Assembly (NCBI GenBank): GCA_017407285.1
Contig: JAFQWW010000043.1
Coordinates: 1-35,908, forward strand
From: Clostridia bacterium
Lineage (GTDB): Bacteria; Bacillota; Clostridia; Christensenellales; RUG350
Direction: 5' to 3'
DNA: 35,908 bases
Both the position numbers and the translations under genes were made by a program. Each line of letters begins with the position of its first letter. Position 1 is the stretch's first letter. The notes under the pieces are model-generated. The model was not told where the DNA came from and did not search any database. It saw only the letters and a list, made by a program, of their open reading frames with translations. Of this stretch, positions 25,612 to 35,908 are shown piece by piece.

Positions 25612-26043
25612 ATGGCTATAAAACAAATAACCGTATTCGTAGAAAACAGACAAGGCGCGCTCGTTGAGATCACGGACACTTTGGCAAAAGAGAGAGTAAA
25701 CATAAGAGCGTTGTCCATAGCAGAAACCAATGATTTTGGTATTCTTCGTCTTATCGTAAACAACGAAGGAAAAGCCGAAGCCACCTTGCAAGAAAAAGGT
25801 TACCTTATAAAAGTAACCGAAGTTGTAGGTGTAAAAATCGGTGACGAACCCGGCGAACTCACCTCGGCATTAAGCGTGTTGGATAAAGAAGGCATAAACA
25901 TGGAATATCTCTACGCATTTATGGCACGCACCGAAAAGCACGCATACGTCGTATTGAGAGTAGAGGATAACGCGCATGCAGAAAAAGCTTTAACGGATGC
26001 GGGGTTTAAGATTGTAACGTTGTTTGACATCGAAAAACTGTAA
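25612..26043 (+). CDS. tandem ACT-domain protein
   Basis: A 143-residue protein of two ACT domains (about 1-70 and 71-143), each with the ligand-binding turn between strand 1 and helix 1 (ENRQGALVEITDTLAKERVNI and DEPGELTSALSVLDKEGINM). There is no catalytic domain. Stand-alone ACT pairs bind amino acids, and this type is commonly encoded beside PaaK in anaerobes. A role as amino-acid sensor for the aminotransferase-ligase pair is inference. Its stop codon lies inside the left arm of a palindromic repeat element, so the element's fold could end the transcript. Confidence 0.9.
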   Translation: MAIKQITVFVENRQGALVEITDTLAKERVNIRALSIAETNDFGILRLIVNNEGKAEATLQEKGYLIKVTEVVGVKIGDEPGELTSALSVLDKEGINMEYLYAFMARTEKHAYVVLRVEDNAHAEKALTDAGFKIVTLFDIEKL

Positions 26044-26165
26044 AACGCCCGATATACGGCGTAATACTTCGTCGTGTATCACGTTTTATCAAGTCACGTA
26101 CCTCAAGTACGCTCCTTTCAAAAACGCTCACACTTCTCGTCTTACTTGTATCTCGGGCGTTTTAC
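26040..26165. repeat. 126-bp palindromic repeat element with 13-bp terminal inverted repeats
   Basis: The ends GTAAAACGCCCGA (26040-26052) and TCGGGCGTTTTAC (26153-26165) are perfect inverted repeats. The centre holds a second hairpin, CGTAC / GTACG around CTCAA (near 26096-26112). The element starts inside the stop codon of the ACT gene. No transposase is encoded and no convincing ORF is present. It resembles a REP- or MITE-like unit. In RNA it could fold along its whole length. Its left 74 bases recur at 26246-26320. Confidence 0.8.
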
Positions 26166-26208
26166 AAAATCAACTATAAAAAGCCAACCTATAATGGTTC
26201 CTTTTTTA

Positions 26209-26320
26209 TTCTTTTCGTCTATCTTGCAAATATCGCGTTTTACGATAAAACACCCGATATACGGCGCAATACTTCGTCGTGTATCACCTTTTATCAAGTC
26301 ACGTACGGTATAGTACGCTC
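26209..26320. repeat. partial copies of the same repeat family
   Basis: About 26209-26243 resembles the right end of the element at 26040-26165 (TTTCGTCTATCTTGCAAATA, then CGCGTTTTAC). Directly after it, 26246-26320 repeats the left 74 bases of that element almost exactly. The few changes fall mainly in the loop of the inner hairpin: CGTAC / GTACG is kept while the loop changes from CTCAA to GGTATA. The right terminal repeat of this second copy is missing. GTTTTA and TAAAAC at 26237-26251 also form an inverted pair across the junction. Confidence 0.75.
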
Positions 26321-26355
26321 TTCACGCTAAAAATTTCAATAAAAAACCAAATAAA

Positions 26356-26443
26356 CGCGTTTCGCGGGGGGGATCGGGGGGACACAATCGCAAGTGTCCC
26401 ACCCGACGCCTTTTGCCACCCTTTTGGGCGCGACAAAAGGGTG
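26356..26443. repeat. cluster of GC-rich hairpins with G runs
   Basis: Three inverted repeats follow each other. CGCG / CGCG surrounds TTT (26356-26366). GGGACAC / GTGTCCC (26379-26385, 26394-26400) is extended outward by TCGG / CCGA. CACCCTTTTG / CAAAAGGGTG (26417-26426, 26434-26443) has a 7-base loop. Between the first two lie runs of seven and six G (26366-26372, 26376-26381), strikingly GC-rich for this window. No gene is visible. From 26446 to 26661 the sequence is AT-rich, with only a weak hairpin (GCTTTA / TAAAGC near 26513) before the phd promoter. Confidence 0.7.
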
Positions 26444-26710: not shown

Positions 26711-26953
26711 ATGTATATTGATACCAATCGTATAGTTTCTATAACGGATACTAATCAAAATTTTTCCAAGGTTGCACGCTTAGTGGAAAAAGAAGGAGAG
26801 GTTTTCGTGTTAAAAAACAACAAACCTAAATTTAAAATCATAGACGTTGAACGTGACGTTTCGGTGGATATGACGATAGACGAGAAGATTGATTTTCTTG
26901 CTTGGCGGATCCTTAATGAATACAGGTCCGATTTTGAGGAACTTGCGAAATGA
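26711..26953 (+). CDS. Phd-family antitoxin
   Basis: Eighty residues. The N-terminal part (VSITDTNQNFSKVARLVEKE, then GEVFVLKNNKPKFKIIDVE) is the Phd/YefM DNA-binding fold. The C-terminal part (MTIDEKIDFLAWRILNEYR...) would be the Doc-neutralising helix. ATG 26711 has AAGGAG upstream; an in-frame GTG at 26678 lies in the promoter and is rejected. The stop overlaps the doc start (ATGA at 26950-26953), as usual for toxin-antitoxin pairs. Confidence 0.88.
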   Translation: MYIDTNRIVSITDTNQNFSKVARLVEKEGEVFVLKNNKPKFKIIDVERDVSVDMTIDEKIDFLAWRILNEYRSDFEELAK

Positions 26954-27327
26954 TAAAGATTAGTAAAGACAAAGTGCTATTATTGCATAAACTTATCACG
27001 GAAGAAACGGGAGGAGATCCTAACGTTCGTGACTTAGCTCTCTTGGATAGTGCCTTGGAGTCTGCGTTTCAGACTTTTGGCGGAGAGGAATTATATCCAA
27101 CCAAAGAAGAAAAGGGCGCAAGAATAGGTTTTGCACTTATATCAAATCACGCATTCGTTGATGGCAACAAACGCATAGGAATGTACGTGACTTTAACCTT
27201 TTTAGAAGCAAACGGTATAAAGGTAAAGCCTCCCATGGGAGAGGTCGCGCGAATAGGACTAGAGATAGCGTCGGGCGAATCTGGTTATGAAGAACTTCTC
27301 GCGTGGATAAGAAAATATAGAGTATAG
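26950..27327 (+). CDS. doc: Doc-family toxin (Fic fold)
   Basis: A 125-residue Doc protein. The Fic-fold motif reads HAFVDGNKR (His67, Asp71, Asn73, Lys74, Arg75). It has Lys where AMP-transferring Fic enzymes have Gly, which is the Doc signature. P1 Doc phosphorylates elongation factor Tu and stops translation; the same activity is expected here by family. It is translationally coupled to the antitoxin and followed by a strong terminator. The locus sits between repeat-rich noncoding DNA and a surface-protein locus, a plausible site of acquisition. Confidence 0.9.
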   Translation: MIKISKDKVLLLHKLITEETGGDPNVRDLALLDSALESAFQTFGGEELYPTKEEKGARIGFALISNHAFVDGNKRIGMYVTLTFLEANGIKVKPPMGEVARIGLEIASGESGYEELLAWIRKYRV

Positions 27328-33244: not shown

Positions 33245-33442
33245 ATGATAACGAAAGAAATGCTTATCGGTGAAGCTTTACAGCACGGCAACGTAGAAAA
33301 GATGGCAGAAGTATTGCAATCTTTTGGTATGCATTGTTTAGGTTGCGCATTAGCGCGTGGTGAGACTATCGAGCAGGCTGCTGCAGTTCACGGCGTAGAC
33401 GTAGACGAAATGGTTGCAGCGTTGAACGCTTGTATTGAGTAA
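33245..33442 (+). CDS. DUF1858 redox-disulfide domain protein
   Basis: A 65-residue protein consisting of one DUF1858 domain, also described as hybrid-cluster-protein-associated redox disulfide domain. The CxxC motif is HCLGC (Cys31, Cys34), within EVLQSFGMHCLGCALARGETIEQAAAVHG. Such domains occur alone or fused to redox enzymes in anaerobes; partners are unknown here. ATG 33245 has AAGGAG 8 bases upstream; an in-frame GTG at 33236 falls inside the Shine-Dalgarno. No terminator follows; the tandem repeats begin 13 bases after the stop. Confidence 0.88.
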   Translation: MITKEMLIGEALQHGNVEKMAEVLQSFGMHCLGCALARGETIEQAAAVHGVDVDEMVAALNACIE

Positions 33443-33454
33443 AGACTTAAAGAC

Positions 33455-33812
33455 TCTGACACGATCTCCGACTGATTTTTAGCGAAAAATACTACGAAAT
33501 ACTTCAAACCTACTCGCTAGCGTACCTTTCAGGTATGCGTCACTCGTACGTTTTCGTCTTTCTTGCATTTTTCACTAAAACACTAAAGTTAATCAAGTCG
33601 TATCTCGTGCATCGTCTTTATCTGACACGATCTCCGACTGATTTTTAGCGAAAAATACTGCGAAATACTTCAAACCTACTCGCTAGCGTACCTTTCAGGT
33701 ATGCGTCGCTCGTACGTTTTCGTCTTTCTTGCATTTTTCACTAAAGCACTACAGTTAATCAAGTCGTATCTCGTGCATCGTCTTTATCTGACGTGATTTC
33801 CGACTGATTTAG
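33455..33812. repeat. tandem 166-bp repeats, two full copies and a partial third
   Basis: Units start at 33455, 33621 and 33787 (exactly 166 bp apart) with TCTGACACGATCTCCGACTG or its near match. The first two units differ at only a few positions; the third stops after about 26 bases. Each unit contains a hairpin GCGTACCT / AGGTATGC around TTC and outer arms AGCGAAAAATAC / GCATTTTTCACT, so most of a unit is an imperfect palindrome. Segments such as TTTTCGTCTTTCTTGCA and AATACTTC match the elements at 26040-26320. The 439 bp between the DUF1858 gene and dnaA hold no gene, only these repeats and the hairpin at 33833. Confidence 0.88.
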
Positions 33813-33832
33813 TCGGGTAAAGTTTATTATTT

Positions 33833-33856
33833 TACTCCGCGCTTTTGCGCGGAGTA
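33833..33856. promoter_or_regulatory. GC-rich hairpin upstream of dnaA
   Basis: Perfect 10-bp stem TACTCCGCGC / GCGCGGAGTA with loop TTTT, ending 25 bases before the dnaA start and 11 bases before its Shine-Dalgarno. There is no T run after it on either strand, so it is not a standard terminator. It may regulate dnaA expression or insulate it from the repeats. Confidence 0.6.
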
Positions 33857-33881
33857 GTAAAAACACAAGGGGTATTATTTA

Positions 33882-35237
33882 GTGGATAAGAATAAACTTT
33901 GGAGAGAGGCTCTTTCCATTTTACAAGTTAAAGTATCCATCGTTGGTTACGACGTTTGGATAAAGACTCTTGATCCCTACGCTATTGCGGAAGGAGGCAA
34001 TTTCGTATTGCTTGCATCAACCGAGTCTGCTAAAAAAGTAGTTAATAAAAGTTACATAGATCAGATTTTATCTTCTCTTACCGCGGTGTCGCCTTCGATT
34101 ACGGCGGTTACCGTCATTTGTGAAAACGAAAAAGAGCGTTACGCTCCTGTTATAGACGAGGCGCAAGAGGGCGGAGCGGATAAAAATTCTTCTCAAAGCG
34201 TGGGTAACGCCGTTACCGATAAATACACCTTTGATTCTTTTGTAGTAGGTACGTCTAACCAACTCGTTTACGCTGCGGCTAGAAACGTTGCAGAAACCCC
34301 GGGTAGTAAATACAACCCCTTATTTATTTACGGTGGCGTTGGTTTGGGTAAAACGCACTTGATGTACGCTATAGGTAATTACGTCAAAAAAGCTAGACCG
34401 AATTACAAGGTTTTGTACGTAACTGCAGAAACTTTGACTAACGAACTTGTAGACGTTATTCGAAATAGCCAAGATAGAGAACAAAACAAAGGCTTCCGCG
34501 ACAAGTATAGAAATATCGATCTTTTGATGATTGACGATATTCAACATATTGCAGGTAAAGCAGGTACGCAGAGCGCTTTGTTTAATATATTTAACGATCT
34601 CTTCCAAAACGGTAAGCAGATAGTTATGACCTCGGATAGACCGCCGAGAGAGTTTGATAATTTAGAAGAAAGACTCCGTACCCGTTTTGAATGGGGACTT
34701 TTAGCCGATATTTCTGCACCTGACATTGAAACTCGTATCGCGATTTTGCAAAAGAAGGCGGAAATGGACAAGCAGTTCGTTCCCGACGACGTTTTGAAAT
34801 TTATCGCAAGCAAGGTAGAGTCCAATATTCGTGAGATGGAAGGATTGTATCACAAGGTAGTGTTCTTCTCCGATTTGTTAGGCAAACCTATTAGTCTAGA
34901 CACGGCAAGGGAGGCGTTGAAAGATTACGTAGACGATACCACCTACACCGTGGACATGGATGCAATTATAGACAATACTTGTGATTTCTTTAGGGTTAGT
35001 CGTGAAGATTTGTGCGGAAAGAGTAGAGCAAAGGCTATAGCAGAACCTAGAATGATTTGTATGTATCTCATCAGCGAGATGTTAGGACTTCCTTTGGTTA
35101 AAATAGGCGATGCGTTTGGCGGAAAAGACCATTCTACCGTCATTCACGCAAGAAATAAGATCGCCGATTTAGTAAAGTCCGACTCCAAAATGCGTACCGA
35201 AGTGAACGATCTTCGTGATAAGATCTTAAAAAGATAG
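33882..35237 (+). CDS. dnaA: chromosomal replication initiator DnaA
   Basis: A 451-residue complete DnaA. Domain I lies at about 1-85 and a short linker at about 86-110. The AAA+ domain shows Walker A GGVGLGKT (151-158), Walker B LLMIDDI (214-220) and the arginine-bearing ERLRTRFEWGL (263-273). The DNA-binding domain IV has the signature AFGGKDHSTVIHA (about 411-423), with Lys where many DnaA have Arg. It starts with GTG behind AAGGGG. Two things are odd: dnaN does not follow, and no DnaA-box cluster is visible in the flanks. Instead an L7Ae gene and rpsL follow, and tandem repeats precede. Confidence 0.97.
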   Translation: MDKNKLWREALSILQVKVSIVGYDVWIKTLDPYAIAEGGNFVLLASTESAKKVVNKSYIDQILSSLTAVSPSITAVTVICENEKERYAPVIDEAQEGGADKNSSQSVGNAVTDKYTFDSFVVGTSNQLVYAAARNVAETPGSKYNPLFIYGGVGLGKTHLMYAIGNYVKKARPNYKVLYVTAETLTNELVDVIRNSQDREQNKGFRDKYRNIDLLMIDDIQHIAGKAGTQSALFNIFNDLFQNGKQIVMTSDRPPREFDNLEERLRTRFEWGLLADISAPDIETRIAILQKKAEMDKQFVPDDVLKFIASKVESNIREMEGLYHKVVFFSDLLGKPISLDTAREALKDYVDDTTYTVDMDAIIDNTCDFFRVSREDLCGKSRAKAIAEPRMICMYLISEMLGLPLVKIGDAFGGKDHSTVIHARNKIADLVKSDSKMRTEVNDLRDKILKR

Positions 35238-35285
35238 CATTTAAGCCTTTATTGCGAATAATTTTGCGAAAAGGGGCAAAAATGT

Positions 35286-35314
35286 TTGACACTTTTGCAA
35301 TTTGTTGATAAAAT
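35286..35314 (+). promoter_or_regulatory. promoter of the L7Ae-rpsL (str) operon
   Basis: TTGACA at 35286-35291, 17-base spacer, TAAAAT at 35309-35314, with TG at 35306-35307 (extended -10). Confidence 0.82.
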
Positions 35315-35385
35315 AGATAGGCTCATAGTAATATGGGCGGTTTCTCGTTGCCCTCTTAACCCACGGCAGAGAAAGATAAGGAAAG
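35315..35385 (+). promoter_or_regulatory. structured 5' leader of the L7Ae-rpsL operon
   Basis: TTTCTC (35341-35346) pairs with GAGAAA (35369-35374), and GCC (35350-35352) with GGC (35365-35367). This gives a stem with an asymmetric 3/1 internal loop. GGGC upstream (35335-35338) can alternatively pair with GCCC (35350-35353). The next gene encodes an RNA-binding L7Ae-family protein, so feedback on this leader is plausible. I do not see the tandem GA pairs of a proper kink-turn, so the idea is unproven. Confidence 0.4.
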
Positions 35386-35646
35386 ATGGATTATAAGGCT
35401 ATTGCAAATACACCTAAGAGCGAATTAGTTGTTGGATTCAAGCAGGTGTTAAAAGGAATAGAAGAAGGAACGGCAAGGTGTGTTGTCGTTGCTTCCGACT
35501 CCGATTCTTTTATATTGGACAAGATTGACGAGATGGCGAAGTTTTACTCCGTCGAGGTCGTCGAGTGCCCCACGAAGGCAGAACTCGGTAGACTTTGTAG
35601 AGTAGACGTACCCACCGCAACTGCCCTTATAAAGGATAGGAAATAG
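35386..35646 (+). CDS. L7Ae/L30e-family ribosomal protein-like (YbxF type)
   Basis: An 86-residue L7Ae-fold protein ([27 protein letters not shown], then [27 protein letters not shown]). The family binds kink-turn RNA. In Firmicutes the YbxF gene lies between rpoC and rpsL; here it is directly before rpsL but follows dnaA, so the rpoBC genes are not adjacent. It has its own promoter and leader. The gap to rpsL is 53 bases, with no terminator. Confidence 0.93.
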
Positions 35647-35699
35647 AGTGTGTCCAAGGTTGCTGGACTCATCCGAAAAATCTTCAAGGAGGTAGAAGA

Positions 35700-35908
35700 A
35701 TGCCCACTATTAACCAACTTATTAGGCACGGCAGAGTAAGACAGACCAAAAAGTCTCTTGCTCCTATCATGGACAAATGTCCTCAAAAGAGAGGTGTTTG
35801 TTTGTCCGTTACTACTACGTCACCCAAAAAGCCTAACTCGGCTATGCGTAAAATTGCCCGTGTAAGACTTGTTAACGGTATGGAAGGTACTGTGTACATT
35901 CCCGGTAT
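35700..35908 (+). CDS. rpsL: 30S ribosomal protein S12, N-terminal part (continues past window)
   Basis: The first 69 codons of uS12, which sits at the decoding centre and is the streptomycin target. [12 protein letters not shown] opens it, and CPQKRGVC and [17 protein letters not shown] are diagnostic; the Lys of PKKPNSA is the classical resistance-site residue and is present. AAGGAGGT is placed 8 bases upstream of the ATG. The gene runs off the right edge. It should head the str operon (rpsL-rpsG-fusA-tuf), which is not visible here. Confidence 0.97.

Follow-up and report, generated by a model that had tools for sequence, protein, structure and literature searches.

The question raised by this locus was whether a tandem repeat array that lies directly before dnaA belongs to that gene. 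The window analyzed here is the whole stretch of 35,908 nucleotides (nt) from a Clostridia bacterium (assembly GCA_017407285.1, contig JAFQWW010000043.1, positions 1 to 35,908), and its positions 33455–33620 and 33621–33786 form a tandem direct repeat, D1, with units of 166 nt that are 98% identical. We found that this 166-bp unit is a member of a family of hairpin elements that is kept in structure, not in sequence. Its position beside dnaA looks incidental, and on balance we lean towards the reading that the family consists of non-autonomous, structure-recognized mobile hairpins, which would spread via single-stranded DNA (ssDNA) at replication.

Based on a direct-repeat search and Tandem Repeats Finder (TRF), the design given in the original prediction, two full units and a partial third one exactly in phase, was confirmed. 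There are 4 differences between the two full units, and the unit spacing is exactly 166 nt; the partial third unit (33787–33810, 24 nt, 88% identity) makes a pair of imperfect direct repeats with the unit start, and D1 is the sole tandem array that TRF detected in the window. The repeats end on the dnaA side at 33810, compared to 33856 as given earlier. Each unit is an imperfect palindrome, as had also been described, with fold z-scores of −3.7 on the plus strand and −5.7 on the minus strand. The minus strand is the folding strand of both units (cores 33485–33572 and 33651–33738), which reached 84.8 bits (E 2e-15) and 83.5 bits, respectively, with the covariance model R1.

A sequence search with the array matched only the array itself, in its own genome and in 40 relatives. 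As the array is unique by sequence, structure was needed to find the family. With less strict searching, a weak pair of matches, 159 bp apart, came up on contig C23 of the source genome (G000), and this is a second tandem array of 158 bp × 2.9 (L060:10238–10857) with another sequence and the same design. It is flanked by a thiamine pyrophosphate riboswitch (45.9 bits, under the gathering score; with a terminator-like hairpin) and by an open reading frame (ORF) that we labeled thiT-like from our reading of its translation. Additionally, a fold scan that covered about 300 kb of G000 identified members at C35:31496–31625 and at 26040–26166 of the window. The latter is a complete hairpin element on the minus strand (z −9.8 on that strand; 92.7 bits), accompanied on the same strand by a decayed tandem neighbor (26255–26364; 35.3 bits, E 1.5e-4) and by a possible one-arm relic of a further copy (26211–26250), for which the nhmmer match is weak (E 0.5) and which by eye fits the conserved CTCGTCTT-CTTG arm. 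In the minus-strand alignment the G000 members share AUGCAAGnAAGACnA, the apex GCGUAC-loop-GUACG(C/U) and GAAGUAUUnCGnnGUAU. Model R1 found 12 places in G000 at E 3e-4 or better, plus many in relatives, and a second and more sensitive covariance model, R2, gave about 15 copies. Just 3' of the second hairpin locus of the window a Phd/Doc-like antitoxin–toxin pair was recognized by eye only (26712–27327). Contig C35 also carries a different multi-hairpin repeat (TTGCCT-ACGGCAAGT-ATATT..., L048:2750–2850), which it has in common with G002 (L025:4240–4322).

The element spans about 105–170 bp, with variable outer arms around a conserved core. On the folding strand the core, AUGCAAGnAAGACnAG...GCGUAC-loop-GUACGU...GACGAAGUAUUnCGnnGCAU, forms a rod interrupted by recurring internal loops that are rich in purines, and the opposite strand folds less well. 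Alignment A4, made by MAFFT from the sequences of 30 members without structural information, was used for pair prediction by RNAalifold, and 28 of the 34 predicted pairs showed two-sided compensatory changes. Paired cells amounted to 95.4% in comparison to 71.5% after shuffling, and the covariation score was 0.575 in comparison to 0.182 for the shuffled alignment and 0.05–0.11 for slid partners; the shuffle control leaves relatedness in, whereas the slid control removes it. The same internal loops were seen again and again in different members (AA facing GNN, G facing A, AA facing GAA), indicating that unpaired purines are conserved while the stems vary. The strand carrying AUGCAAG folded better in 32 of 33 copies, by about 10 kcal/mol, copies within one array not being independent of each other. 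Its 1×1 mismatches were G.U in 17 cases and A.C in 2, and with DNA parameters the same strand was the stronger one in all four cases tested. The complementary strand mostly folds too, with a difference of about 4–8 kcal/mol.

With R2, the matches per genome numbered 67 in G033, 44 in G031, 26 in G007, 15 in G000, 10 in G035 and 2 in G020, and no match was obtained at E 0.01 in G001 and G002, which belong to the same family as the source genome; this absence makes the distribution patchy, like that of a mobile element. Across the order, where scoring was restricted to 10 candidates per genome, the family was detected at E 1e-4 or better in 135 of 396 genomes and 43 of 142 genera; in a sample of the phylum 24 of 398 genomes had a match. 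The named matches to the exact core pattern were metagenome-assembled genomes of Bacillota/Clostridia. The same pattern was absent from viral contigs, and blastn of one distant member (from G511) against phages and plasmids gave no match. No Rfam family exceeded its gathering threshold at the elements, and no clear description was found in the literature outside subscription journals, so that an earlier description is possible. If the family is as described here, at least a third of the genomes of one order carry hairpin repeats that are unlisted in Rfam, and sequence searches miss them because only the structure is kept.

These results bear directly on the tie between the array and dnaA. The array takes up most of the 439-nt gap between the gene of a small DUF1858 protein (33245–33442, plus strand) and dnaA (33882–35237, plus strand, GTG start), and it begins 12 nt past the DUF1858 stop codon, a position like that of members elsewhere. 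Between the repeats and the dnaA Shine–Dalgarno sequence there is a GC hairpin, as predicted (33832–33857, 11 bp, −20 kcal/mol), which lacks a U tract, is not terminator-like and ends about 11 nt 5' of the ribosome-binding site AAGGGG. In agreement with the missing consensus promoter noted originally, no promoter-like site was detected on the plus strand from 33443 to dnaA, even when 8 of 12 matches were accepted, and the gap was also free of terminator-like sites. A regulatory array specific to dnaA, acting by binding of DnaA or another regulator, by leader attenuation or by copy-number tuning, would fit this placement in the dnaA leader with no consensus promoter downstream. However, family members occur at many unrelated loci, no DnaA box lies within the array, which argues against binding of DnaA, and R2 gave no match at the dnaA loci of 29 relatives, including the element carriers G033, G031 and G007. 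The original prediction was to be given up if the array were absent before dnaA in close relatives with unchanged dnaA expression, and the absence, which is the first half of that statement, is what we found. A specific role at dnaA is thus extremely improbable, while some influence of the array on dnaA transcription is possible. The case advises caution in taking local arrays, such as one before dnaA, for gene-specific regulators. On the 3' side, in the part of the window from dnaA onwards (33882–35908), the gene next to dnaA is of the L7Ae family, and after it comes, by eye, rpsL and not dnaN. In G001 dnaA by eye adjoins dnaN, with TTATCCACA boxes in between. The GC skew keeps its sign throughout the window.

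The orientation of the elements was compared to the direction of replication, with the leading strand assigned by GC skew. Of 64 clusters in G033, G031 and G007, 60 had the folding strand opposite the leading one (binomial p 7e-14). Along each G033 contig all copies and relics were on one strand, and in the single-contig genome G511 the strand flipped with the skew and 8 of 9 copies fitted. An exception was formed by four G598 copies that follow the leading strand and share one flank, the end of a 16S ribosomal RNA (rRNA) gene. With respect to genes, the folding strand was antisense to both neighbors at 21 of the 29 listed loci and sense to both at none. Four clusters apparently split replication from gene direction, favoring replication; Pfam supports only two of their flanking genes and one of the loci has a competing ORF, and this separation is suggestive. 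Gene orientation as the sole source of the strand bias was disfavored by the G033 stretches, where by our own sum about 30% of ORF bases are on the lagging strand, yet no cluster is inverted, the gene calls being rough. It could also be proposed that both orientations arise and that loss then removes the elements whose stronger hairpin is on the lagging-strand template, an idea put forward for the attC arrays of sedentary integrons. Such survivorship alone appears distinctly unlikely, as the complementary strand is mostly able to fold as well, with the energy difference given above, and the decayed single arms share the orientation of the complete copies, for which an insertion bias is the better fit.

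The ends of the elements were also informative. In 44 of 95 elements the stop of a long ORF falls near the gene-proximal model end, at −45 to +3 nt from it, and stop codons are also part of the outer repeats, namely TGA in CTGACGGC and TAA in GTAAAAC and TTAAG. Read by eye, the element ends are GTAAAACG in G000, TTAAG in G031 and CTGACGGC in G033. The G033 elements are bounded by defined ends, CTGACGGC...GCCGTCAG, and are joined head to tail with a single base in between. These terminal inverted repeats are a trait of miniature inverted-repeat transposable elements (MITEs), and together with the intergenic placement and the patchy distribution they would suit an ordinary MITE in decay that belongs to a DDE transposase and has no single-strand aspect. 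However, a neutral element of this kind would neither keep the pairing of one strand by compensatory change across genera nor track the direction of replication, and we consider this origin very unlikely. At loci L096 to L113 of G033 another dispersed repeat, GGGGATTTCTCCGC...CGGTCGAAATGACA, is often found directly 5' of the hairpins and in the same orientation.

For the mobile hairpins that we favor, we propose that a protein supplied in trans would recognize the folded strand as ssDNA exposed around replication and would copy or move the element. Recognition of this kind would let the stems vary freely while keeping their pairing, would favor one strand with an orientation that tracks replication, and would gather copies just after the stops of leading-strand genes. 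The array at dnaA may have arisen when one copy was duplicated in tandem, plausibly through the imperfect 24-nt direct repeats at its ends. We infer the ssDNA route, the enzyme and the route of duplication from these features, and mobility itself from the patchiness, the copy number and the defined ends. If true, the strand lock to replication would make the family a test case for folded-ssDNA recognition and insertion at forks, and its mobilizer would be a searchable target.

Several points weigh against this proposal. The case for mobility includes neither an occupied and empty site pair nor a target-site duplication. Y1 transposase (PF01797) was not found in G000, G031, G033, G225, G223, G192, G384, G359 and others, and a RAYT or IS200 enzyme was rejected as the mobilizer, since most carriers lack it. 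The integron integrase (TIGR02249) was similarly rejected, with none of 28 genomes, carriers included, over the cut-off, a search that leaves other integrases possible. No autonomous parent element was present in 300 kb of G033, where unpaired arms are lone relics and no long repeat lies near the elements. The covariance-model search is biased somewhat to the modeled strand, and the orientations of replication and transcription are only partly separable, with uncertain gene calls. Finally, the inspected G598 copy (L165:9165–9269) lies RNA-sense in the 16S–23S spacer of an rRNA operon, and a G031 copy (L082:1490–1618) is likewise RNA-sense, some 300 nt ahead of a 16S gene. Both copies fit a role as RNA, and some selection on RNA is possible.

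The main rival is indeed that the hairpin acts as RNA, in processing, stability, protein binding or as antisense, at the 3' ends of genes and inside rRNA spacers. The conserved purine-rich internal loops, the G.U tolerance on one strand and the placement right behind stop codons point in this direction in addition to the sense-oriented spacer copy, as do the possibly related hairpin motifs that Stepanov and Fox mention for the leaders and spacers of rRNA and for sites between genes (PMC7812874). However, the folding strand is mostly antisense to both neighbors, so that the mRNA would contain the strand that folds poorly and has the A.C mismatches. Moreover, the dnaA copies have no consensus promoter or terminator, and no shared promoter-like sequence was seen by eye in the flanks of different copies. 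We therefore regard an RNA role as rather unlikely and retain mobility through ssDNA as the preferred explanation.

The family can be compared to several known systems. By description, and as a lead, it resembles the 5S rRNA expansion-segment and spacer hairpins of Clostridia (PMC7812874), which are likewise long bulged hairpins of rRNA leaders, spacers and intergenic regions. The ERIC/IRU, BOX and RUP elements and long stem-loop repeats are likewise imperfect palindromes that are intergenic, occur in many copies and are sometimes tandem or modular (PMC2267715, PMC3049150), and the present elements share with the ERIC/BOX type an imperfect palindrome that is scattered over intergenic sites and is present many times in a genome. 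In comparison to ERIC, BOX and RUP as described, the present family keeps its structure while the sequence diverges across genera, and has two-sided covariation and a strand locked to replication. REP and REPIN sequences, moved by TnpA-REP (RAYT), are also non-autonomous clustered hairpins for which movement as ssDNA is thought to occur (PMC3116915, PMC8266576). REPs are 20–40 nt long with a GTAG-type tag, whereas the present elements are 105–170 nt long (no search was aimed at the tag), and the Y1 transposase is missing in most of their carriers.

The attC sites of integrons have variable stems and conserved unpaired bases, as have the present elements. They are likewise strand-specific folded hairpins that follow genes and have the folding strand on the leading-strand template (PMC5371416). 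By contrast, the present ends by eye lack the RYYYAAC/GTTRRRY R boxes, the elements form no cassette arrays, and the integron integrase stayed under the cut-off in the 28 genomes. The present elements thus work like attC sites and are not members of the attC/CALIN group. Tentatively, they may represent a new and widespread class of structure-recognized ssDNA hairpins in Bacillota, attC-like in character, served by a different enzyme and with an orientation set by replication.
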